This document shows positions 6,286 through 26,575 of a stretch of 64,000 nt of DNA, piece by piece. Under the pieces are notes generated by a model that searched no databases, was not told the DNA's origin, and worked only from the letters and a program-made list of their open reading frames with translations. Each line of letters starts with the position of its first letter. Position 1 is the stretch's first letter. Source of the stretch: Candidatus Bathyarchaeota archaeon (lineage in GTDB: Archaea > Thermoproteota > Bathyarchaeia > Bathyarchaeales > Bathycorpusculaceae); NCBI GenBank assembly GCA_026414485.1, contig JAOAIX010000001.1, positions 89,502-153,501 on the forward strand, given 5' to 3'. The position numbers were made by a program, and so were the translations under genes.

Positions 6286-6567
6286 TCAAGGTGTTGTTTT
6301 CTTTTGGCGGATTGTCTTTCCAAATAGTAACGCTACAGCCAAAACAGTAAGTGTCCCAAAAACGCCTGCAAGCAAAGTTGACAAATATGGATTTTCAACA
6401 GTTGCTACCGTATAATCAGGCATCAGACCTCTCCAAACTGTCTCTTGTTCTTCAACACCTAGTGTTTCAGCTACTTTTTCCAAGCCGTCCGGATCGCTTG
6501 ATGCTAACGGTATGAAGACTGCAAGAAAAATTATGAGCAAAGCTGAAGCTATGAGATATTTCTTCAT
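6286..6567 (-). CDS. PDGLE-domain protein, small subunit of a cobalt/nickel ECF-type importer
   Basis: This 93-residue membrane protein carries the diagnostic PDGLE sequence (SSDPDGLEKVAE) between two transmembrane helices, one at residues 4-23 and one at 62-84. PDGLE proteins accompany CbiM and take the place of CbiN in cobalt or nickel transport. Its start overlaps the end of the CbiM gene by 4 bases, so the two are translationally coupled. No CbiQ or ATPase gene is adjacent, so the energising subunits must be elsewhere, or CbiM with PDGLE acts alone as reported for some CbiMN units. Confidence 0.85.
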   Translation of the reverse strand: MKKYLIASALLIIFLAVFIPLASSDPDGLEKVAETLGVEEQETVWRGLMPDYTVATVENPYLSTLLAGVFGTLTVLAVALLFGKTIRQKKTTP

Positions 6568-7229
6568 TGCTTTACTTTCACCTTTAAAAGAGTTAAACCG
6601 CCGAGAGCGGTGGGTTGTAAGCGTTGAATGGCTGTCAACAAAGTGACCGTTATTGTAGCTTCAATTACACCAATTATCATATGGTACATCAGCATCGAAG
6701 GAACAGTTACTGCAATTCCACCTGCTTGAACAAAAACCGGCGATATTCCAATCTGTAGTGCACATGATAAAGCGCTAAGTACAACTGAAAGCCAAGCAGC
6801 TATGAAGACGCTGAAGGTGAATCTTCGGTTAGTCGGCGAATTGTGGGTTAGGAACTTTACAATGAAAAAACTTAGACCGCCAATAACTGCCATGTTGAAG
6901 ACGTTAGCTCCAAACGTTGTTATTCCACCGTCAGCAAAAAACAGCGCCTGCATCAGCAAAACTATTGTCATACTCAATATTCCCGCGTATGGACCTAATA
7001 ACACCGCCAGAAAGGTGCCGCCTACTAAATGCCCGCTGGTACCGAAAGCGATCGGGAAGTTTATCATCTGGGCGGCAAAAACAAACGCGCTTGAAATTGC
7101 CAGTATTGCAGTGAAGGAGCGTGAGTAGGAAGCTTGAACTTTTTTCCAAGACCAAACCAGAAAGGCTATAGACACAACAAACATCGTCGCCGCGGTTACG
7201 GGTTCTAGGAAGCCGTCGGGTATATGCAT
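6564..7229 (-). CDS. cbiM: CbiM-family cobalt/nickel transport substrate-binding subunit
   Basis: CbiM is the membrane component that binds Co2+ or Ni2+ through its extreme N-terminus. Choosing the ATG at 7229 gives MHIPDGFL, the conserved metal-binding start, instead of an upstream TTG that would add ten residues. About six hydrophobic helices follow, with a conserved GTSGHLVGG loop around residue 64. The protein has 221 residues, the usual size. Nickel rather than cobalt is favoured because hypF-hypC-hypD lie 9 kb away and the promoter shares a heptamer with another transporter promoter; that is inference. Confidence 0.88.
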   Translation of the reverse strand: MHIPDGFLEPVTAATMFVVSIAFLVWSWKKVQASYSRSFTAILAISSAFVFAAQMINFPIAFGTSGHLVGGTFLAVLLGPYAGILSMTIVLLMQALFFADGGITTFGANVFNMAVIGGLSFFIVKFLTHNSPTNRRFTFSVFIAAWLSVVLSALSCALQIGISPVFVQAGGIAVTVPSMLMYHMIIGVIEATITVTLLTAIQRLQPTALGGLTLLKVKVKQ

Positions 7230-7240
7230 ATCAATCGCCA

Positions 7241-7268
7241 GTATTACTTTTAATAACAAACGTGTTAC
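7241..7268 (-). promoter_or_regulatory. cbiM leader: two GTRTTAC heptamers 21 bases apart
   Basis: On the plus strand GTATTAC (7241-7247) and GTGTTAC (7262-7268) are separated by exactly 14 bases, the same spacing as in the operators at 20704-20768, but here both point the same way instead of facing each other. Upstream in the cbiM direction is a TATA-like TTTTTATAC near 7274-7282, placing the heptamers at or after the transcription start. This would suit repression by a metal sensor. The direct-repeat arrangement makes the assignment weaker than for the other site. Confidence 0.45.
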
Positions 7269-7450: not shown

Positions 7451-8314
7451 GTGGCCTTTGAAATTCAAGAACTACGTGACGTCATAAGAATAATCGTGTT
7501 GTTGAACCTCAGCAAGGGTAACGTTGAGTCTAAAACGTCTTTAAAACGTAAAATTGACAAAGTCTGTACTAGCCTCGCCTGCATTAGTGTAGGTGAGTTA
7601 GATAAAGCTTTGACAGAAATGGCCTCTGAAAAGTTGATAATTGACAACGGTTACACTGTGCAATTAACTGAGCAGGGGCTCAAGCTTGGACAAGAATGGA
7701 AAAGCCTGCTTCTGAAAAAAGAGCCCATACTTGAAGTAGTAGCTGGGCTCGTTGATGGTTCCATCACTGGACTCGTAGTTATTTTATCTGCCTTTCTATC
7801 ATTGCTAACAGGCAGCGGTTTCTTTTTGTCCACAAAAACAGTGGTTTTCGCTGCTTTCCTTACGTTAACGGCGGTCTCTATTACTAACTTTTCCAGCTTC
7901 TTTTTGGGCGGAGTAACTGAAGACCTAGCGAACATAATGACGCTTCGTACCCTTATGAACTATAGTTTAAGCGACATACCTGACAAGAAAGAAAGAGATA
8001 AGTCGTTGCTGTTAGTTGAAAAGCTTTTTCTTGTCTTAGGCAAAGAAATCCACCGTTCAAACCTCTCCGCAGCCATAATCTGTAGCACAACTACTTTTCT
8101 CGCTGGAAGCTTACCCATAATTGTATATATCGCTCTTCCTACGCCTCTGGATATAATCGCGTCTCTCAGTATAGTTGCCTCGATTGCAGGCATCTTTTTA
8201 GTTAGTTATCGCTCCAAAAAGACTAGAGTTCACTGGAAGGTAACTTTGGCTGAGACGCTAGCTATAGTTGCTATAGCCACGGTTGCTTCCTTGTTGCTGG
8301 GCGGCTTTGCTTAA
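7451..8314 (+). CDS. VIT1/CCC1-like membrane protein with N-terminal winged-helix-like domain
   Basis: Residues 1-80 look like a winged-helix domain (EIQELRDVIRIIVLLNLS, then LTEQGLKLGQEW). Residues 90-287 hold about five transmembrane helices, beginning with EVVAGLVDGSITGLVV, the motif that opens the VIT1/CCC1 family of Fe2+/Mn2+ transporters; later helices include SSFFLGGVTEDLAN. The family exports or stores iron. The fusion of a DNA-binding-like domain to the transporter is unusual and might sense the cargo, but function is inferred. The start is GTG. The ferritin-like gene downstream on the other strand fits iron handling. Confidence 0.7.
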   Translation: MAFEIQELRDVIRIIVLLNLSKGNVESKTSLKRKIDKVCTSLACISVGELDKALTEMASEKLIIDNGYTVQLTEQGLKLGQEWKSLLLKKEPILEVVAGLVDGSITGLVVILSAFLSLLTGSGFFLSTKTVVFAAFLTLTAVSITNFSSFFLGGVTEDLANIMTLRTLMNYSLSDIPDKKERDKSLLLVEKLFLVLGKEIHRSNLSAAIICSTTTFLAGSLPIIVYIALPTPLDIIASLSIVASIAGIFLVSYRSKKTRVHWKVTLAETLAIVAIATVASLLLGGFA

Positions 8315-15887: not shown

Positions 15888-18164
15888 TTGCGTGTTAAAC
15901 TCAATGTCACAGGTATAGTGCAAGGTGTGGGATTTCGTCCCTTCATCTATAGAATTGCTATCAAAAACGGTTTAACAGGTTATGTGCGGAATCGAGGCGA
16001 TGCTGGCGTCGAAGTACTTCTCGAAGGTTCCAAAGCCGCTCTGGACGGTTTTTTGCTTGATCTCTACAAACAAAAGCCGCCTCAAGCCTGCATACACCGC
16101 GTTATACAAACTCCTCTGCAGGGAAAAAATGAGTACAGTCAATTTTCTATTATTCAAAGTTCTGCAGAGACCGAGTTTTCAGGTTCCGTGGTGCCGCCTG
16201 ACATATCCATATGCGGTGAATGTTTAACAGAACTCCGTGATACTCAGAACCCACGTTTTGACTACTTCTTCATAACATGCGTTAACTGTGGTCCCCGCTT
16301 CACCATAATCGAGAGAGCCCCCTACGATCGAGACACTACCTCCATGCGCGATTTTTCGCTTTGCAGTTTCTGCTTAAAAGAGTACACTGATCCTTCGAAT
16401 CGCCGGTTTCACGCTCAAACTGTTGCTTGTCCACTTTGTGGGCCAAAAGCTTACCTCACCACAAACAAAGGTGAGGCTATAAAATGTGCGGATCCTGTAC
16501 GGCAAGCAGGCAAACTCCTTAATGAAGGCAGTATAGTTGCTGTGAAAGGCTACGGTGGCTTTCATCTTGCTGCGTCTGCCGCACTTGAGGCTCCTTTGGT
16601 GAGGCTTCGCCAGTCGAAGAGTCGACGCGTGAAACCTTTTGCGATAATGGCGAAAAGCTTGGAGGCAGTAGAAACCTTCGCTGAAGTGAACTCTAAAGAA
16701 AAAGAACTGTTGTCGTCTTATTCGCGACCCATTGTTTTGCTCAATAAAAGCGGCAAGTACCACCTTTCGCCGCTGGTGGCGCCTGATTTGCATAATGTTG
16801 GCGTTATGTTGCCTTACTCTGCCATGCACTATATGCTCTTCGACCGTGTGGGTGACCTAGCGTTTGTTATGACTAGCGCTAATCCACCCAACCAACCCAT
16901 AGTAAAAGAAAATGATCTGGCTCTCCAAATTCTAAGCGGCACTGTGGATTATTTTCTGTTTCATAACCGGAACATTGTTCAGCGGTGCGATGACTCTGTT
17001 ATGCGAGTGCATGGCGATCGCAGCGTGTTTCTTAGGCGTAGTCGCGGTTACGCTCCAGCTCCAATAATAATTCGCAAACCGGCAAAACATTGCGTTGTTG
17101 CTTTGGGCGGTGAACTCAACAACACTTCATGTGTATTAAACGGAGACAAAGCTTTCATCAGTCAGCACATAGGTGATGTAGAAAACCTTGAGACTCTCAG
17201 TTTTCTCCAAGAAACCATAGGTCACCTCGTTAACTTAACCAACAGTAAAGTTGACACAATTGCGTGTGATTTACATCCGAAATTCACTACTACTAACCTT
17301 GCACGTAACCTTGCTGAAAAAAATAGGTGGCAACTGGTTCAGGTTCAGCATCATCATGCTCATGTGGCAGCGTTGATGGCAGAGCATGGCGTAGAAGAGA
17401 TTGTTGGTGTAGTTTGTGATGGGTACGGGTACGGCTCTGACGGTTCTGCATGGGGCGGCGAGGTGCTTCTCTGTGACAACGGCGTTGTCAACTTTAATCG
17501 TGTTGGGCATTTAGAGAAACAACCCTTGGTCGGTGGGGATTTAGCAACCAAATATCCCTTGCGGGTAGCCGCCGCTATACTGAATAAAAAAATTGATGTG
17601 TCGCAGTGGCTGCTACAAAACAGTAGTCGTCTGCCTTATGGCGAAACTGAGGCAAAGCTTATCATTAGTCAACTCAAAAAAGGCAGTGCACCTGAAACCA
17701 CTAGTCTTGGAAGAATACTAGACGCCGCTGCGGCAGTTTTAGGCGTTTGCTATGAGCGCACCTACGAAGGCGAAGCTGCCATGAGGCTGGAGGCAGTAGC
17801 AGCTAAAGGCAAAGACGTGTTGGATTTAGATTTGATTATCCGCGACAACGTTGTGGATACTTCTCAATTGTTGTTTGCAGTTTACGAAAACCGAGCTAAC
17901 TACTCAAAATCTGACCTTGCCTATTCGGTTCATGCCTATTTAGCTAAAAACTTAGCTACGTTGGCAGTGGGAAAGGCAAAAGAACACGGCATTTCAACTG
18001 TGGGCTTCACAGGAGGTGCAGCTGTCAACGCGTTGCTTGCTTCGTTGATGCGCAAGGTTGTGGAGGAAGCGGGGTTGCGTTTTCTGGTGCATGAGCTGCT
18101 TCCAGCAGGCGATGGGGGCGTAAGTTTTGGGCAAGCAGTGGTTGGAGGTTTTTCAGATTTTTAA
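15888..18164 (+). CDS. hypF: carbamoyltransferase HypF, [NiFe]-hydrogenase maturation
   Basis: HypF converts carbamoyl phosphate to the cyanide ligand precursor of the [NiFe] site, handing it to HypE. Domain order is complete: acylphosphatase (GIVQGVGFRPFIYRIA) at residues 1-90, two zinc fingers (CGECLTEL, CVNCGPRF, CSFC, CPLCGP) at 105-185, a YrdC-like domain (VAVKGYGGFHLA) and a Kae1-like carbamoyltransferase domain with QHHHAHVAALMAEHG and GGAAVNALLASL. Length 758 is normal. The start is TTG. It is followed by hypC and hypD on the same strand; hypA, hypB and hypE are not in the window. Confidence 0.95.
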   Translation: MRVKLNVTGIVQGVGFRPFIYRIAIKNGLTGYVRNRGDAGVEVLLEGSKAALDGFLLDLYKQKPPQACIHRVIQTPLQGKNEYSQFSIIQSSAETEFSGSVVPPDISICGECLTELRDTQNPRFDYFFITCVNCGPRFTIIERAPYDRDTTSMRDFSLCSFCLKEYTDPSNRRFHAQTVACPLCGPKAYLTTNKGEAIKCADPVRQAGKLLNEGSIVAVKGYGGFHLAASAALEAPLVRLRQSKSRRVKPFAIMAKSLEAVETFAEVNSKEKELLSSYSRPIVLLNKSGKYHLSPLVAPDLHNVGVMLPYSAMHYMLFDRVGDLAFVMTSANPPNQPIVKENDLALQILSGTVDYFLFHNRNIVQRCDDSVMRVHGDRSVFLRRSRGYAPAPIIIRKPAKHCVVALGGELNNTSCVLNGDKAFISQHIGDVENLETLSFLQETIGHLVNLTNSKVDTIACDLHPKFTTTNLARNLAEKNRWQLVQVQHHHAHVAALMAEHGVEEIVGVVCDGYGYGSDGSAWGGEVLLCDNGVVNFNRVGHLEKQPLVGGDLATKYPLRVAAAILNKKIDVSQWLLQNSSRLPYGETEAKLIISQLKKGSAPETTSLGRILDAAAAVLGVCYERTYEGEAAMRLEAVAAKGKDVLDLDLIIRDNVVDTSQLLFAVYENRANYSKSDLAYSVHAYLAKNLATLAVGKAKEHGISTVGFTGGAAVNALLASLMRKVVEEAGLRFLVHELLPAGDGGVSFGQAVVGGFSDF

Positions 18165-18211
18165 CCACACGGTTTTTATCGTCGTGGCAACTGGGTTTAT
18201 GGTGACCAAGA

Positions 18212-18433
18212 ATGTGTTTAGCCATTCCAGCTCACGTTTTGAGTGTTTCTGGCGATAAAGCACAAGTGGATTTTGGGCAAAATGTTCTGCGGGAAGTCAA
18301 CATATCCCTCGTAGATGTGAAAGTTGGCGACTATGTTTTGGTGCATGCAGGCTACGCGATACAGAAACTTGATGAAAAAGATGCTTTAGAAACACTCAGT
18401 TTGTGGAAAGAAATTCTTGAGACAGAAAATTAG
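18212..18433 (+). CDS. hypC: hydrogenase maturation chaperone HypC
   Basis: HypC/HupF binds iron with HypD and escorts the Fe(CN)2CO unit to the large hydrogenase subunit. The 73-residue protein starts MCLAIPA, with the essential Cys2, and continues as a small beta barrel (VGDYVLVHAGYAIQKLDEKDA), the standard family signature. It lies 47 bases after hypF and 16 before hypD, so the three genes are one operon. Confidence 0.95.
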   Translation: MCLAIPAHVLSVSGDKAQVDFGQNVLREVNISLVDVKVGDYVLVHAGYAIQKLDEKDALETLSLWKEILETEN

Positions 18434-18449
18434 TGTCTGAAAGGGTAAT

Positions 18450-19556
18450 TTGAATGTTGGGTCAACCATGGTAGTGCAGAATTATCGTGACCCTGAACTG
18501 GCGTGTCAAATAGCCGCCAAAATTCGAGAGGTCACGCCGCAGACTGGTAATTTCAAGTTTTGTCACGTCTGTGGTACTCACGAATGGACTATTACTCACT
18601 ACGGCATCAGGAGTTTGCTACCAAAAAATGTTGAAGTTATAGCCGGTCCTGGTTGTCCCGTTTGTATTGTGCCGGCGGCAGAAATTGATGAAGCGGTGCT
18701 CCTAGCAAAAAAAGGAGTGGTGATGACGTGTTTTGGTGACTTGTTGCGTGTGCCAGGTAGTGATGGATCGTTGTTGGATGCCAAAGCTCAGGGCGCTGAT
18801 GTGAGGGTTGTTTACAGTTTAACTGACGCAGTTAGCATGGCTAGAAAAGAACCTGAAAAAGAATTTGTGTTCTTTGCGGTTGGTTTCGAAACGACGGCGC
18901 CCACAACGGCCTTAGAAGCCCTAAGTAAACCGCCTAGAAATTTTAGTTTTTTGATTGCGCATCGTCTGATTCCGCCTGCCATGGAGCTTTTGTTAGGTGT
19001 AGGCGACCTGCAAATTGACGGGTTTATTGCGCCTGGTCACGTGAGCGCGATAATTGGCATGAAACCTTACGAGCTTTTCCCCAAAGTTTACCGTATGCCC
19101 ACTGTGGTGGCGGGGTTTGAGCCTATCGATGTTCTCATGGGCATATACATGCTTGTAAAACAACTGAAAGAGAAAACTGCCCGGTTGGAAAATGAATATG
19201 CTCGCGTGGTTAAATGGGAAGGCAACCAGAAAGCATTAGAAATAATGAATCGTGCTTTCACTGTGACGTCGGGAAACTGGAGGGGAATTGGCAGACTTCC
19301 TGATTCAGCATACGAACTTCGGGATGAACTTGCCTCCTACGACGCACGCGCAAAATTTAATGTAAAGATAAAGCAGGGCAAAGATATCCTTCTTGGCTGC
19401 GAATGTCACTTGGTGATAATTGGTAAAATTAAGCCTGACAAATGTCCTCTTTTCATGAAGGCTTGTACGCCACAAAGACCTGTGGGCGCGTGTATGGTTA
19501 GCAGTGAAGGCACATGCAGAGTCTGGGCTAAAGCTGCCTTATCCCCTCTTCAGTAG
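18450..19556 (+). CDS. hypD: hydrogenase maturation protein HypD
   Basis: HypD is the [4Fe-4S] scaffold on which the Fe(CN)2CO group is built. Conserved motifs are present: FCHVCGTHEW near residue 38, AGPGCPVCIVP near residue 70, FAVGFETTAPT near 148 and GHVSAIIG near 195; the cluster cysteines in the C-terminal region (CECHLV, CTPQRPVGAC, GTCRVW) are intact. The TTG at 18450 gives 368 residues, but the ATG at 18468 is also possible. No hydrogenase structural genes are in view. Confidence 0.95.
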   Translation: MNVGSTMVVQNYRDPELACQIAAKIREVTPQTGNFKFCHVCGTHEWTITHYGIRSLLPKNVEVIAGPGCPVCIVPAAEIDEAVLLAKKGVVMTCFGDLLRVPGSDGSLLDAKAQGADVRVVYSLTDAVSMARKEPEKEFVFFAVGFETTAPTTALEALSKPPRNFSFLIAHRLIPPAMELLLGVGDLQIDGFIAPGHVSAIIGMKPYELFPKVYRMPTVVAGFEPIDVLMGIYMLVKQLKEKTARLENEYARVVKWEGNQKALEIMNRAFTVTSGNWRGIGRLPDSAYELRDELASYDARAKFNVKIKQGKDILLGCECHLVIIGKIKPDKCPLFMKACTPQRPVGACMVSSEGTCRVWAKAALSPLQ

Positions 19557-19884: not shown

Positions 19885-20658
19885 TCAATTCAGAGGCTCG
19901 ATTGGTATTATGTACGGTATTTCTTTGTTGTAGTTTATAACAACTTCAACGCCATAAACTGAACTTATGTTTTCTGGAGTTAACACGTCATGTGTTTTAC
20001 CCGCCGCGTATACCCTGCCATTTTTCATCATCACAACTTTGTCACAGAAACGGGATGCTAAATTAAGATCATGGATTGCCACAACCGCGGCAAGCCTTTG
20101 TTTTGCAACTAATTTCCTTGTCAAATTCATAACCTCCAGCTGGTATTTTATGTCTAAATTGCTGGTCGGTTCGTCTAGCAGGAGAACTTTTGCTTCTTGT
20201 GCTAATGACCGTGCAATTAAAACTCTCTGTTGTTCGCCACCGCTAAGTTCATAGAAATCACGCAGTGCCAAGTGCTCAATTTTAAGAGTCTTTAACGCTT
20301 CCCATGTCTTCTCTGTGTCTTTTTCACTGTTTTGCCATGTGAAGTGTGGCCTTCTACCCATCAGTACAACGTCAAACACTGAGAGGGCGCTTGGGTTATT
20401 AACAGTGCTTTGGGGTACATATCCTATGTGTTTTGCAACTTCAAGCCTACTCATCTTTTTAAGATGTTTACCTTCAAGTAGGATGCGTCCCTGCTTGGGC
20501 TCTAAAATTTTATTTATGCACTTTAGCAAGGTGGTTTTTCCTGAGCCGTTTGGGCCTATCATCCCTAAAACTTCTGATTCGTGGATATCTACGTTTACTT
20601 CGGTAAGTGAGGGGGTGCTGCGGTAAAAGAAGGTGACACCTTGCACGGTTATGTTCAT
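19885..20658 (-). CDS. ABC transporter ATP-binding protein, iron-siderophore/cobalamin (BtuD/FepC) type
   Basis: The 257-residue ATPase powers the importer encoded divergently at 20780-24332. Walker A is GPNGSGKTT (residue 35), the Q-loop is YVPQST, the signature ELSGGEQQR lies near residue 138 and Walker B is LLLDEPTSNLD. The spacing and the PHFTW segment match the BtuD/FepC subfamily. ATG follows GAGGTAAA. It shares the operator region at 20704-20768 with the substrate-binding protein gene, so the transporter genes are likely coregulated although on opposite strands. Confidence 0.92.
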   Translation of the reverse strand: MNITVQGVTFFYRSTPSLTEVNVDIHESEVLGMIGPNGSGKTTLLKCINKILEPKQGRILLEGKHLKKMSRLEVAKHIGYVPQSTVNNPSALSVFDVVLMGRRPHFTWQNSEKDTEKTWEALKTLKIEHLALRDFYELSGGEQQRVLIARSLAQEAKVLLLDEPTSNLDIKYQLEVMNLTRKLVAKQRLAAVVAIHDLNLASRFCDKVVMMKNGRVYAAGKTHDVLTPENISSVYGVEVVINYNKEIPYIIPIEPLN

Positions 20659-20703
20659 TTTTTTACCTCGCTTGTTTTTTGAAGTGGTTTTCAGGGTATT
20701 TTA

Positions 20704-20731
20704 GTATTACTTTTTTTAATAATCGTAACAC
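20704..20731. promoter_or_regulatory. operator 1: GTATTAC-N14-GTAACAC
   Basis: GTATTAC at 20704-20710 and GTAACAC at 20725-20731 form an inverted repeat with one wobble position and a 14-base T/A-rich spacer. This resembles the GTGTTAC-N14-GTAACAC class of NikR nickel-repressor sites described by comparative genomics. It lies between the divergent ATPase and substrate-binding protein genes. Confidence 0.6.
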
Positions 20732-20740
20732 AATGTATAA

Positions 20741-20768
20741 GTATTACCTTTTTTAAAAAAAGTAATAC
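20741..20768. promoter_or_regulatory. operator 2: GTATTAC-N14-GTAATAC
   Basis: GTATTAC at 20741-20747 and GTAATAC at 20762-20768 are exact inverted repeats, again 14 bases apart, with a spacer that is itself T-rich then A-rich. The site begins 37 bases after operator 1. A TATAAG element at 20736-20741 sits between the two, and the right half-site abuts the GGTGAT ribosome-binding site of the next gene, so binding would block transcription initiation. Confidence 0.65.
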
Positions 20769-20779
20769 GGTGATCTGTT

Positions 20780-22378
20780 GTGAGAAAAGCTCTGTTAATA
20801 GGAATAATCCTTACACTCTTGCTAACTTCTTCAATAATACTAATTTATAACCAAAATTTTTTCCAACAAAAATCTGCGACTTCTCAGCAAGCTGATGTTG
20901 CGCTGCCCCAGTCATCTCCAACTACAACACCTACAGCCTCTGAACAGCCCCCACAGCAAACAAACTCGCCCGCCCCCACTGTCCCATCTCAACAGACAAC
21001 TCCTCCCCAATCGACGTCTTCACCAACACCACAATCAAACAACTTACCACCAACAGTATCTCCTTTACCTACCCCCTCACCGATGCGAGTGTCCATACCG
21101 TTGACCCTTGAAATCTTCGGAAACGCTCACCTTGATGACGTTATAGACGAAGTTGATTTACGTCTAATGGAGCGAATCGTCGCCGGCACCGCAGACAAAA
21201 CCCGATTTTCCGACGCAAATAACGACGGAGTAATAAACCAAGCTGACATTGAGCAGATAAGAAAGATCATAAACGGTACGGCTTCCTACATTGTAATGCT
21301 CGATGGAAACGGCAAAAAAATAACCGTAACTCTACCAGTAAATCGTATCGTCGTTGAATATATCCAAAACGCAGAACTTATGCGGGTTCTAAGACTAGAG
21401 GACAAAGTTGTCGGCGTTGATTTCTGCGTTAACCAGCTCAAATCTATATACTTCCCAAATAATACTAACATAGTGTCTGTTGGGCAAATGTATACCCCTG
21501 ACTACGAAAAAATTCTCAGTCTAAATCCTGATATTGTCTTGACATTTTCTAACTCGCCTTCAGCTATAGACGAAAAAGCCTCAAAACTGCCTGGAGTAAA
21601 CGTGGTTTTCTTAGGTTTATACTACCCAAACGTCACTAACCCTGAAGCTTCCCAGTTTTTCCAAGGAATACTCAAAGCAGGCTACATATTCAACCGGGTA
21701 CCTCAAGCAACAGAGTATGTAAACTGGTTGTTCAATCTCACGCAGACTTTACGTGCAAAAACTAGTCTCCTATCTGAAAGTGACAAACGTACGGTGTTAT
21801 TGACTAACTACCCATACACACCCTCCACGACTATCCGAGCATACACGACTCTCGACACGTTGGGTCAGGTGTGCATTTTATCAGGCGGCTCTAACATTGC
21901 AAAAATACTTCCAACTTACCTTAACGCCTCTTCTATTAATGTCGACGCTGAATGGATTCTAACCCAAAACCCTGACTACATCTTTCTGCACACGGTAAGA
22001 TACACTTTCAGCGGGATAACTTATGCTGACCCTGCGCAGGGTCTTGACGTCAGTGACATCAACAGCATAAAAACTTGTTTGCAAAATTGGATGGCGCGAC
22101 CAGAATTTGCCTCTCTCAAAGCTGTCCAAAATAACCGCGTCTACATTATAGCCGGCGACTTTCGAAATAACGCTATGGGTGGAGTTTTAGGCGCCGTTTA
22201 TATAGCGAGGACACTTTACCCTGACTTGTTTGCTGATTTAAATCCACAAGCAGTTCACCAAGAGTACATTACACGATTCATGAGGATAAACTACAACTTG
22301 GACACTGATGGAGTCTTTCTGTATCCGTCGCTTCGCGTAAACAATGACGTAGTAGGTATACCCAACAACGCTGCCTGA
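20780..22378 (+). CDS. ABC substrate-binding protein (BtuF/FepB type) with dockerin-like domain
   Basis: The 532-residue protein has an N-terminal membrane anchor (residues 4-23, no lipobox), a Pro/Thr/Ser/Gln-rich linker (about 35-105), a dockerin-like EF-hand pair (about 110-168, with SDANNDGVINQADI as the second Ca2+ loop) and a siderophore/cobalamin-type binding domain (about 170-515, with NRIVVEYIQNAEL and ILSLNPDIVLTFSN). It presumably captures a metal or metal chelate outside the membrane and passes it to the BtuC-like permease. GTG follows GGTGAT. The NikR-like operators suggest nickel; cobalamin or heme are alternatives. Confidence 0.82.
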   Translation: MRKALLIGIILTLLLTSSIILIYNQNFFQQKSATSQQADVALPQSSPTTTPTASEQPPQQTNSPAPTVPSQQTTPPQSTSSPTPQSNNLPPTVSPLPTPSPMRVSIPLTLEIFGNAHLDDVIDEVDLRLMERIVAGTADKTRFSDANNDGVINQADIEQIRKIINGTASYIVMLDGNGKKITVTLPVNRIVVEYIQNAELMRVLRLEDKVVGVDFCVNQLKSIYFPNNTNIVSVGQMYTPDYEKILSLNPDIVLTFSNSPSAIDEKASKLPGVNVVFLGLYYPNVTNPEASQFFQGILKAGYIFNRVPQATEYVNWLFNLTQTLRAKTSLLSESDKRTVLLTNYPYTPSTTIRAYTTLDTLGQVCILSGGSNIAKILPTYLNASSINVDAEWILTQNPDYIFLHTVRYTFSGITYADPAQGLDVSDINSIKTCLQNWMARPEFASLKAVQNNRVYIIAGDFRNNAMGGVLGAVYIARTLYPDLFADLNPQAVHQEYITRFMRINYNLDTDGVFLYPSLRVNNDVVGIPNNAA

Positions 22379-22446: not shown

Positions 22447-23253
22447 ATGACAAGCGTCGTTAACTGGAACGAGACAAGAAAGTTGATGTTGCAAAGTACC
22501 CGCCGTATCAAGTCATGCAACATTAAGTATTGGGATATGTGTGCGCTAGACTTCAACAAAAAAACAGCCTCTATGCACACATTAACCCAAGATCAAATAA
22601 ACAAACTCCCTCTAACGCCAGCCCACACAGTTCTTGAAATTGGAGCAGGCACTGGTCGCATAACCATCCCGATTGCTAAAAAGGTTAAGCATGTAACAGC
22701 AGTGGAGCCTTCTTTGCGGATGCTGGCTTTCTTGAAGGCAAACGCTGAAAGGTCACAAGTGAAAAACATAACCTGCATAAATAAACCTTGGGAAAACATT
22801 AACACAGATGAAGTGTCCCCTCACGATTTTGTTATTGCTTCTTTTTCATTTTTTATGATCGATCTTGCCCCCGCCTTGTTGAAGATGCATATTTTAGCAA
22901 ATGAAAAAGTCTACCTTTTCCTTTCTGCGTCTAATTGGATGGAAGAAGAGATCCAAAAAATACTCTTTGGCAACGCTCAACCAGAGGTTTTCCCTGATCA
23001 CGTCTACATTTACAATATTCTCAACGAATTGGGCATAACCGCAAATGTTGAAGTTTGGACTTATCTTTCTGAACAGAGGTATGCTGATTTATCTGAAGTA
23101 ACCTCTAGATTCATGGAACTCTACGATGTTCCTGCTGACAAAAAAGAACATCTCAAAGAATATCTTCTAAAAATCTTAGTGCCTGATGAAGGTGGTCTTT
23201 GGCTGAAACAACAAAAGAAGGTAGCAATGTTATGGTGGTCAAAAGAAGAGTAG
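22447..23253 (+). CDS. class I SAM-dependent methyltransferase inside the importer operon
   Basis: The 268-residue protein shows motif I VLEIGAGTGRITIPIA near residue 63 and an acidic motif II (VTAVEPS), the fold of class I methyltransferases. It sits between the substrate-binding protein and the permease and overlaps the permease start by 22 bases, so it belongs to the same transcript. The substrate is not evident. The position suggests modification of the transported metal ligand, but that is speculation. Confidence 0.8.
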   Translation: MTSVVNWNETRKLMLQSTRRIKSCNIKYWDMCALDFNKKTASMHTLTQDQINKLPLTPAHTVLEIGAGTGRITIPIAKKVKHVTAVEPSLRMLAFLKANAERSQVKNITCINKPWENINTDEVSPHDFVIASFSFFMIDLAPALLKMHILANEKVYLFLSASNWMEEEIQKILFGNAQPEVFPDHVYIYNILNELGITANVEVWTYLSEQRYADLSEVTSRFMELYDVPADKKEHLKEYLLKILVPDEGGLWLKQQKKVAMLWWSKEE

Positions 23254-24332
23254 TCACCGCTTATAATACTCCCCAGGATGGGGTTACTGAAGAAAAGCGG
23301 AAATACCGCAGGCTGCTCTTACGGCGAAGCCTATTTCTAATCTTCTGCGTCATTTTACTTTTAACTGTAGCAGGTGTTTCTCTTGCCCTTGGCTCTGCTG
23401 AAATGTCCTTTTTTGACGCATACGCTGCAATTTTTGGAAGATTTTTTCCCAACATATTTCATGTAACTCCGCTTGCTGATACAGTTGTTTGGACTTTAAG
23501 GCTGCCGCGAATGCTTTTAGCAGTTTTAGCTGGTGCTGCGTTTGCGATGGCAGGCTCTACGACACAAGCAATTCTCAGAAACCCACTTGCAACCCCTTAC
23601 ACTTTGGGTGTTTCAGCGGGTGCGGCACTGGGTGCAGCTATAGGTATAATTGTGGGCAGAGGCGTAACCGATGGTCCTCTTCTGATTGTCGGCAACTCAT
23701 TTGTTTTTTCAATAATTCCTATTTTTGTCATTTTACTTATGATTAAGCGCAGAGGAGCATCCCCTGAAACTATAATCCTCTCAGGAATCGCTATAATGTA
23801 TATTTTTTCTGCATGCACTACTTTGCTGCAATATTTTGCGGAATCCAACGCGGTTAGCGCGACTGTTTTTTGGGCGATAGGTGACTTGTCTAGAGCAGCT
23901 TGGTGGCAGTTGCCCTATATACTTTCAGTCTTCATTTTGTGCTTCATAATAAATCTCCGTTTAGCGTGGGATCTAAACATAATGAAGATGGGTGATGACA
24001 GCGCAAAAAGCCTTGGCGTAGAAGTTGACCGCGTACGAATAATTGTTTTGCTCACTGCTTGCCTTTCAACTGCCGTTGTGGTTAGTTTCACAGGTGCTAT
24101 AGGTTTTATTTGTCTGGTTGCACCACACATTTGCCGTGCTGTTGTGGGTGGTGACGAACGTTTGCTCCTTGTGTCATCAAGTTTGTTTGGCGCAATTTTA
24201 CTGATTTTTGCGGACATAATCGCCCGGAGACTAATTGCTCCCATTGTGCTGCCTGTGGGAGCTATAACCGCGTTTCTGGGTGGACCTTTGTTACTTTATC
24301 TGTTGATTAGGCGGAGACGGGTAAATCAATGA
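23232..24332 (+). CDS. ABC transporter permease, BtuC/FecCD family
   Basis: The 366-residue permease has about nine to ten hydrophobic helices and FecCD signatures: LRLPRMLLAVLAGAAFAMAG near residue 90, NPLATPYTLGVSAGAALG and GFICLVAPHICRAVVGGDER near residue 290, the last being the coupling loop that contacts the ATPase. The ATG at 23232 has AAGGT upstream and is preferred over the TTG at 23199. It overlaps the methyltransferase gene by 22 bases. Confidence 0.92.
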   Translation: MVVKRRVVTAYNTPQDGVTEEKRKYRRLLLRRSLFLIFCVILLLTVAGVSLALGSAEMSFFDAYAAIFGRFFPNIFHVTPLADTVVWTLRLPRMLLAVLAGAAFAMAGSTTQAILRNPLATPYTLGVSAGAALGAAIGIIVGRGVTDGPLLIVGNSFVFSIIPIFVILLMIKRRGASPETIILSGIAIMYIFSACTTLLQYFAESNAVSATVFWAIGDLSRAAWWQLPYILSVFILCFIINLRLAWDLNIMKMGDDSAKSLGVEVDRVRIIVLLTACLSTAVVVSFTGAIGFICLVAPHICRAVVGGDERLLLVSSSLFGAILLIFADIIARRLIAPIVLPVGAITAFLGGPLLLYLLIRRRRVNQ

Positions 24333-26468: not shown

Positions 26469-26575
26469 GCCGGGGTAGCCTAGCCTGGCCAGGGCGCCAG
26501 ACTCATAATCTGGAGAACAATGGTGGCCAACGCCCATGTGTCCAGAGGTCGCGGGCTCGAATCCCGCCCCCGGCA
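26469..26575 (+). tRNA. tRNA-Met (CAT) with a 32-base intron in the variable loop
   Basis: Acceptor arms GCCGGGG and CCCCGGC pair fully. Anticodon stem CCAGA/TCTGG encloses CTCATAA, giving CAT. Between the anticodon stem (ends 26513) and the T stem (GCGGG, begins 26551) there are 37 bases where five are expected. Removing 26516-26547 leaves the usual AGGTC. The junctions can fold as a relaxed bulge-helix-bulge: CTGG (26510-26513) pairs with CCAG (26542-26545), leaving three-base bulges AGA and AGG at the cut sites. CCA is encoded at 26576-26578. The A+G acceptor and missing initiator features fit elongator Met. Confidence 0.92.
26516..26547 (+). other. noncanonical tRNA intron
   Basis: This 32-base segment is predicted to be removed from tRNA-Met by the splicing endonuclease and the exons joined by RtcB. 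The boundaries come from the required five-base variable loop and the CTGG/CCAG helix between two three-base bulges. Shifts of one or two bases would give the same mature sequence because AG repeats at both ends. Confidence 0.7.

Follow-up and report, generated by a model that had tools for sequence, protein, structure and literature searches.

Predicted NikR operators at the divergent promoter of a FecCD-type importer in a Bathyarchaeota archaeon

Paired operators around a divergent promoter

Within the window, a 64,000-nucleotide stretch of a Candidatus Bathyarchaeota genome, the genes of a FecCD/BtuCD-type ABC importer are divided between two divergent transcripts. The initial annotation had placed two tandem NikR-like sites at 20704–20768, between the ATPase gene and the substrate-binding protein (SBP) gene; both sites are found there, their starts 37 bp apart, and the gene order is as described:

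19885–20658, minus strand: ATPase of a FecCD/BtuCD-type importer, 257 aa (PF00005, 6.5e-36)
20696–20703, minus strand: likely TATA element of the divergent ATPase gene, TAAAATAC, a conserved block that abuts Operator 1
20704–20731, no strand: Operator 1 (OP1), predicted NikR site, inverted repeat GTATTAC-TTTTTTTAATAATC-GTAACAC (N14; exact motif match)
20736–20740, plus strand: TATA element (TATAA) of the SBP operon, its promoter role predicted
20741–20768, no strand: Operator 2 (OP2), predicted NikR site, inverted repeat GTATTAC-CTTTTTTAAAAAAA-GTAATAC (N14; exact motif match)
20780–22378, plus strand: SBP, 532 aa, with a dockerin-like segment and a Peripla_BP_2 domain (PF01497, 4.4e-19)
22447–23253, plus strand: class I SAM-dependent methyltransferase (PF13649, 3.2e-11)
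23199–24332, plus strand: FecCD-family permease (PF01032, 1.6e-86)

The 9-bp gap between the operators, AATGTATAA, ends in TATAA, so the TATA element abuts OP2 and is bracketed by the two sites, as had been proposed. The resemblance to NikR sites known from comparative genomics also holds: the delta-proteobacterial NikR signal is GTGTTAC-[N13/14]-GTAACAC, in inverted and everted arrangements (Rodionov et al. 2004, PMC545781), and it is matched exactly here except that position 3 of the half-site is the A variant. Immediately upstream of OP1, a block reading TATTTTA/TATAATA/TATTTGA is kept in most orthologues; judged by its distance to the ATG, this block at 20696–20703 is likely the TATA element of the ATPase gene.

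A pattern search of the host genome (1.53 Mb in 33 contigs, 92.5% complete) for GTRTTAC-N14-GTAAYAC returned OP1 and OP2 as the only zero-mismatch matches, against about 0.035 exact copies per genome expected from base composition, and revealed no match with one mismatch. At two mismatches the motif was found 11 times and its reversed control 22 times; because the control exceeds the motif, we regard these matches as noise and rejected them as further regulon members.

We then compared the orthologous promoters. A search with the SBP led to 16 genomes, 15 of them with readable upstream DNA, and all 15 upstream regions carried sites, with one genome (G014) having only a single degenerate site with two mismatches. 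The pair was present in 14/15 promoters, counting partners with one or two mismatches, at an offset of 37 bp in 11 (this window included) and 35 bp in three. In the 37-bp class the gap reads AANNTATAA in nearly all members, and across orthologues it ends in TATAA, or in CATAA in some 35-bp pairs. Among the 11 promoters with a 37-bp pair, the OP1 half-sites exhibited a mean pairwise identity of 91% (spacer, 52%) and the OP2 half-sites 94% and 83% (spacer, 56%), with the linker between the operators 84% identical and the 40-bp flanks 36–45% identical. Since orthologues keep the half-sites and not the spacers, the pattern is, by this comparison of sequences, that of a protein-binding footprint rather than a hairpin. 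In the class set of 257 genomes, the OP-9-OP pattern with up to three mismatches occurred in 12 genomes (control, 0), in 11 cases at this importer and in the twelfth before cbiM. In the two M17C Bathyarchaeota records OP2 is exact and no OP1 can be recognised, and a Methanomethylicus orthologue, read by eye, has one degenerate site only.

The regulator and its other candidate targets

The operator assignment calls for a NikR protein in the host, and the whole-genome check found two homologues, NikR1 (G000:C22) and NikR2 (G000:C28). Several NCBIfam models of nickel regulators match NikR1 above their cut-offs; the NikR2 scores lie just under them. Full-length NikR1 aligns with the E. coli and P. 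horikoshii proteins, and both host proteins are identical to E. coli NikR at the aligned positions H76, H87, H89 and C95, which we take to be its four nickel ligands. Close to where the DNA-binding strand begins, NikR1 keeps an arginine that is absent in NikR2. By analogy with a Methanothermobacter homologue beside znuABC, for which sensing of another metal has been suggested (PMC3087415), NikR2 may sense a metal other than nickel. The NikR2 gene (L006:239-988 and 1095-1481 locus) is divergent from a ZIP-like transporter gene, identified by reading its translation, and the GTRTTAC motif was not found between the two. The host nikR1 promoter showed no site with up to two mismatches.

The host needs nickel, judging by its genes for CdhA and for several large subunits of the [NiFe] hydrogenase family; [FeFe] hydrogenase is absent from its genome. 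CdhA is the second Prismane match; the first, a hydroxylamine reductase (hybrid cluster protein), was rejected as evidence of CODH.

A third predicted site, missing from the initial annotation's list, precedes a CbiM/NikM-type gene in the same window, with hypF- and hypD-like genes (15888–19556) lying between it and the importer operators:

6286–6567, minus strand: PDGLE protein (NikN/CbiN-like), overlapping the end of nikM (PF13190, 1e-14)
6564–7229, minus strand: CbiM/NikM-type ECF substrate-specific component, starting MHIPDGF (PF01891, 3.9e-55; CbiM models)
7241–7268, minus strand: third predicted NikR site, direct-repeat half-sites GTAACAC-N14-GTAATAC, 12 bp before the nikM start
15888–18164, plus strand: HypF-like gene, [NiFe] hydrogenase maturation (translation read)
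18450–19556, plus strand: HypD, [NiFe] hydrogenase maturation (PF01924, 2.8e-142)

This is the only exact GTRTTAC-N14-GTRTTAC match in the host genome, and a TATA-like TTTTTATAC lies upstream of it. The CbiM protein with its MH start and the PDGLE protein, encoded by overlapping genes, correspond to a NikMN ECF module; CbiN models match the PDGLE protein under their cut-off. Putative metal-importer genes thus lie downstream of 3/3 exact N14 sites found in the host genome, and in one relative (L009) the HypF-like orthologue adjoins the importer. Divergent from nikM, at 7451–8314, is a VIT1/CCC1-like membrane protein (PF01988 just under cut-off), whose orthologue in a relative (L042) adjoins an 81-aa ORF carrying the exact motif.

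Across the 91 genomes of the family set, the exact motif occurred 41 times and the reversed control once. Most exact sites precede FecCD-type importers, operons of a P-loop (CbiA/NifH-like) protein and an SBP, CbiM, or small membrane proteins. The importers include a second FecCD-type operon, which encodes a 363-aa SBP, a permease and an ATPase, and nikR itself is also among the genes preceded by the motif. By hand count from gene tables, about 31 of the 37 motif regions are of the importer, P-loop and SBP, CbiM, small-membrane-protein or nikR kind; exact sites with no metal gene alongside occur at L014, L038 and L040. The concern raised with the initial annotation, that motif copies might be unrelated to metal genes, is therefore answered by the copies at nikM-nikN in the host and at metal genes in the family genomes. 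NikR1-like proteins are encoded in 77/91 family genomes and the exact motif is present in 21/91; in the draft assembly of G010, a relative that has this importer with one-mismatch sites, no NikR is seen.

The nikR1 promoters themselves (n = 30 genes: 29 loci of relatives and the host's own) carry an everted GTAACAC-N14-GTGTTAC at −73 to −82 in 8/30 cases (control, 0), four of them exact and four with one or two mismatches; one further nikR1 has an exact inverted site at −190. These everted copies in eight relatives tie the regulator to the motif. In G025, the ATPase gene of this importer has as its direct neighbour a nikR that carries a tandem site pair of its own; the contig also encodes a second nikR further downstream.

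Several other loci in the family drew attention. In two genomes, one-mismatch sites of the form GTGCTAC-N14-GTAACAC lie just before [FeFe] hydrogenase genes (L041:3872-3899 in G060; L047:3782-3809 in G062), with an exact site preceding the neighbouring membrane-protein gene; the sequences suggest a nickel-repressed, nickel-free hydrogenase in archaea. At five loci (L019, L020, L025, L026 and L029, in G044, G050, G063, G067 and G078), the exact motif stands directly before membrane proteins of about 180 aa that have no Pfam match and resemble ECF substrate components, with neighbours including a methyltransferase or an FmdE-domain protein. At three more (L031, L035 and L046, in G023, G027 and G062), it stands before operons of a CbiA/NifH-like P-loop protein, possibly CooC-like, and a Peripla_BP_2 protein, which could link nickel import to CODH maturation.

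The importer and its cargo

The FecCD permease, ABC ATPase and Peripla_BP_2 SBP make up a complete FecCD/BtuCDF-type (type II) ABC importer set, and the same set is found in orthologues. Every orthologous operon whose reading extended far enough has the methyltransferase between the SBP and the permease; the enzyme may make or modify a chelator. Residues 119–165 of the SBP form a dockerin-like segment of the EF-hand type, flanked by a linker rich in proline and threonine and by the binding domain; the segment is kept in orthologues, and its PF00404 match is just under cut-off. At one locus (L010), SBP segments are repeated within a single open frame that includes an undetermined residue.

The initial annotation's doubt about a cobalamin role is in line with the family models. 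The nearest models of the ATPase are heme, corrinoid and iron-dicitrate ATPases, all under their equivalog cut-offs, and neither the ATPase, the permease nor the SBP reached the cut-off of any named importer family. The cobalamin models in particular fell short (BtuC, 202 of 334 bits; BtuD, 146 of 281 bits; corrinoid ATPase, 234 of 537 bits), and no BtuF model was among the SBP matches in the family-model search. With its proteins under every named-family cut-off, a cobalamin label for the importer is unsupported. A cobalamin riboswitch was rejected as support for a B12 role, since none lies within the first 30 kb of the window, where only tRNAs were found; archaea rarely use such riboswitches. 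One tRNA match, at 26469–26575, is 107 bases long, a length that suggests an archaeal tRNA intron. Structure-database matches of the SBP included no close solved relative that would fix its ligand; a weak match was the H. influenzae HI_1472 protein, presumably a FecCD-type molybdate SBP. A structure prediction of the SBP had a mean pLDDT of 38.6, and the model was discarded.

Because the operator pair matches the NikR sequence and is kept in relatives, nickel is the most likely cargo of the importer, whose synthesis would stop when the metal is abundant. We hold it highly probable that OP1 and OP2 are NikR operators at which nickel-bound NikR1 would repress both transcripts, and that the FecCD-type importer would take up nickel or a nickel chelate.

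Comparison with known systems is consistent with this reading. The half-sites, spacing, inverted and everted variants and nickel-importer targets are alike in the delta-proteobacterial nik regulons (PMC545781); here, in contrast, the host is an archaeon, an ATPase/SBP/methyltransferase/FecCD importer takes the place of NikMNQO, two operators with a constant offset of 37 bp enclose an archaeal TATA box, and a direct-repeat variant occurs at nikM. H. pylori NiuBDE is a FecCD-type nickel importer whose promoter was recovered in NikR ChIP-seq and whose SBP gene is NikR-regulated (PMC5140060); it likewise links a FecCD permease, an ATPase and a Peripla_BP_2 SBP to NikR, whereas the present SBP has a dockerin-like segment and is similar only weakly (4ino, 5.2e-5), a methyltransferase is part of the operon, and the nickel cargo is a prediction. 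The NikM-NikN (CbiM-PDGLE) pair under the same motif resembles archaeal Nik/CbiMNQO systems with NikR (PMC2667541, PMC10617489), whereas the FecCD-type importer is a separate system and belongs to none of the three families of archaeal Ni/Co transporters given in PMC2667541. The E. coli NikR operator, GTATGA-N16-TCATAC, is also a 28-bp inverted repeat and shares the outer GTAT bases, but differs in the inner half-site bases (GTATGA versus GTATTAC here; PMC7055735).

Among the alternatives, the one that deserves most weight, although we consider it improbable, is that the NikR sites are real and the cargo is cobalamin or a corrinoid, cobalt, or an iron chelate, with import adjusted to the nickel supply. 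The best family models of the ATPase and permease are indeed corrinoid, heme and ferric-chelate importers, and proteins with the Peripla_BP_2 fold bind a wide range of ligands. NikR can, moreover, control non-transport genes, such as the [FeFe] hydrogenase genes hydAB of D. desulfuricans, for which this was proposed (PMC545781); but NiuBDE provides a precedent for a NikR-linked FecCD-type importer that carries nickel (PMC5140060). None of these models reached its equivalog cut-off, and importers are the commonest targets of the motif in the family. The lack of a cobalamin riboswitch in the first 30 kb points the same way, with the reservation on archaea given above.

That the sites instead belong to another regulator with a 28-bp palindrome, such as a ModE-like protein, and that the importer carries molybdate or tungstate, is very unlikely: the weak SBP match to HI_1472, a FecCD-type molybdate SBP, would fit, but the motif is found in nikR1 promoters, before nikM-nikN and before [FeFe] hydrogenase genes. 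Desulfovibrio ModE signals share the N14 spacer (PMC545781), yet their half-sites differ (GTCAC). Least of all do we credit chance or structural AT-rich sequence (a hairpin, terminator or bent promoter DNA); the spacers are T/A-rich and OP2 is nearly self-complementary, but two exact sites 37 bp apart far exceed the expected 0.035 per genome, and the orthologue comparison, with half-sites kept and spacers not, already refutes this explanation and speaks against a conserved hairpin.

Proposed mechanism and implications

Under the preferred reading, that of NikR operators controlling a nickel importer, a nickel-bound NikR1 tetramer would bind OP1 and OP2 when nickel is sufficient. Given TATAA at 20736–20740, transcription is predicted to start near 20762, inside OP2, and OP2 would span the predicted start of the SBP–methyltransferase–permease transcript; OP1, between both divergent TATA elements, would when occupied keep TBP and TFB off either promoter. 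With both operators bound by NikR, factor loading and polymerase would be held back on each side, and the importer would be made only when nickel is short, the imported nickel, as chelate or free ion, probably feeding [NiFe] hydrogenases and CODH/ACS. The 37-bp offset corresponds to about 3.5 helical turns, which would place the two tetramers on opposite DNA faces.

More tentatively, and with clear doubt on our part, the members of a single Bathyarchaeia NikR regulon might act together to save nickel. The programme would comprise ECF components and several FecCD-type importers of nickel chelates, of which one is accompanied by its own methyltransferase as a possible maker or modifier of the chelator; some species would also change over to nickel-free [FeFe] hydrogenase, and the importers would rely on a putative archaeal nickelophore.

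A full-text literature search found no NikR regulon study for Bathyarchaeia. The present analysis outlines a predicted NikR regulon in an archaeal class of which most members are uncultured, and offers a testable function for a family of transporters that annotation models place nearest to importers of iron, heme or B12. A nickel-free hydrogenase is a proposed NikR target in D. desulfuricans (PMC545781). The consensus shared by delta-proteobacteria and Bathyarchaeia, and the presence in each group of [FeFe] hydrogenase genes preceded by NikR-type sites, make a cross-domain nickel-sparing logic directly testable; and operators paired at a constant 37 bp about a single TATA box would be a clean model of bidirectional repression in archaea.
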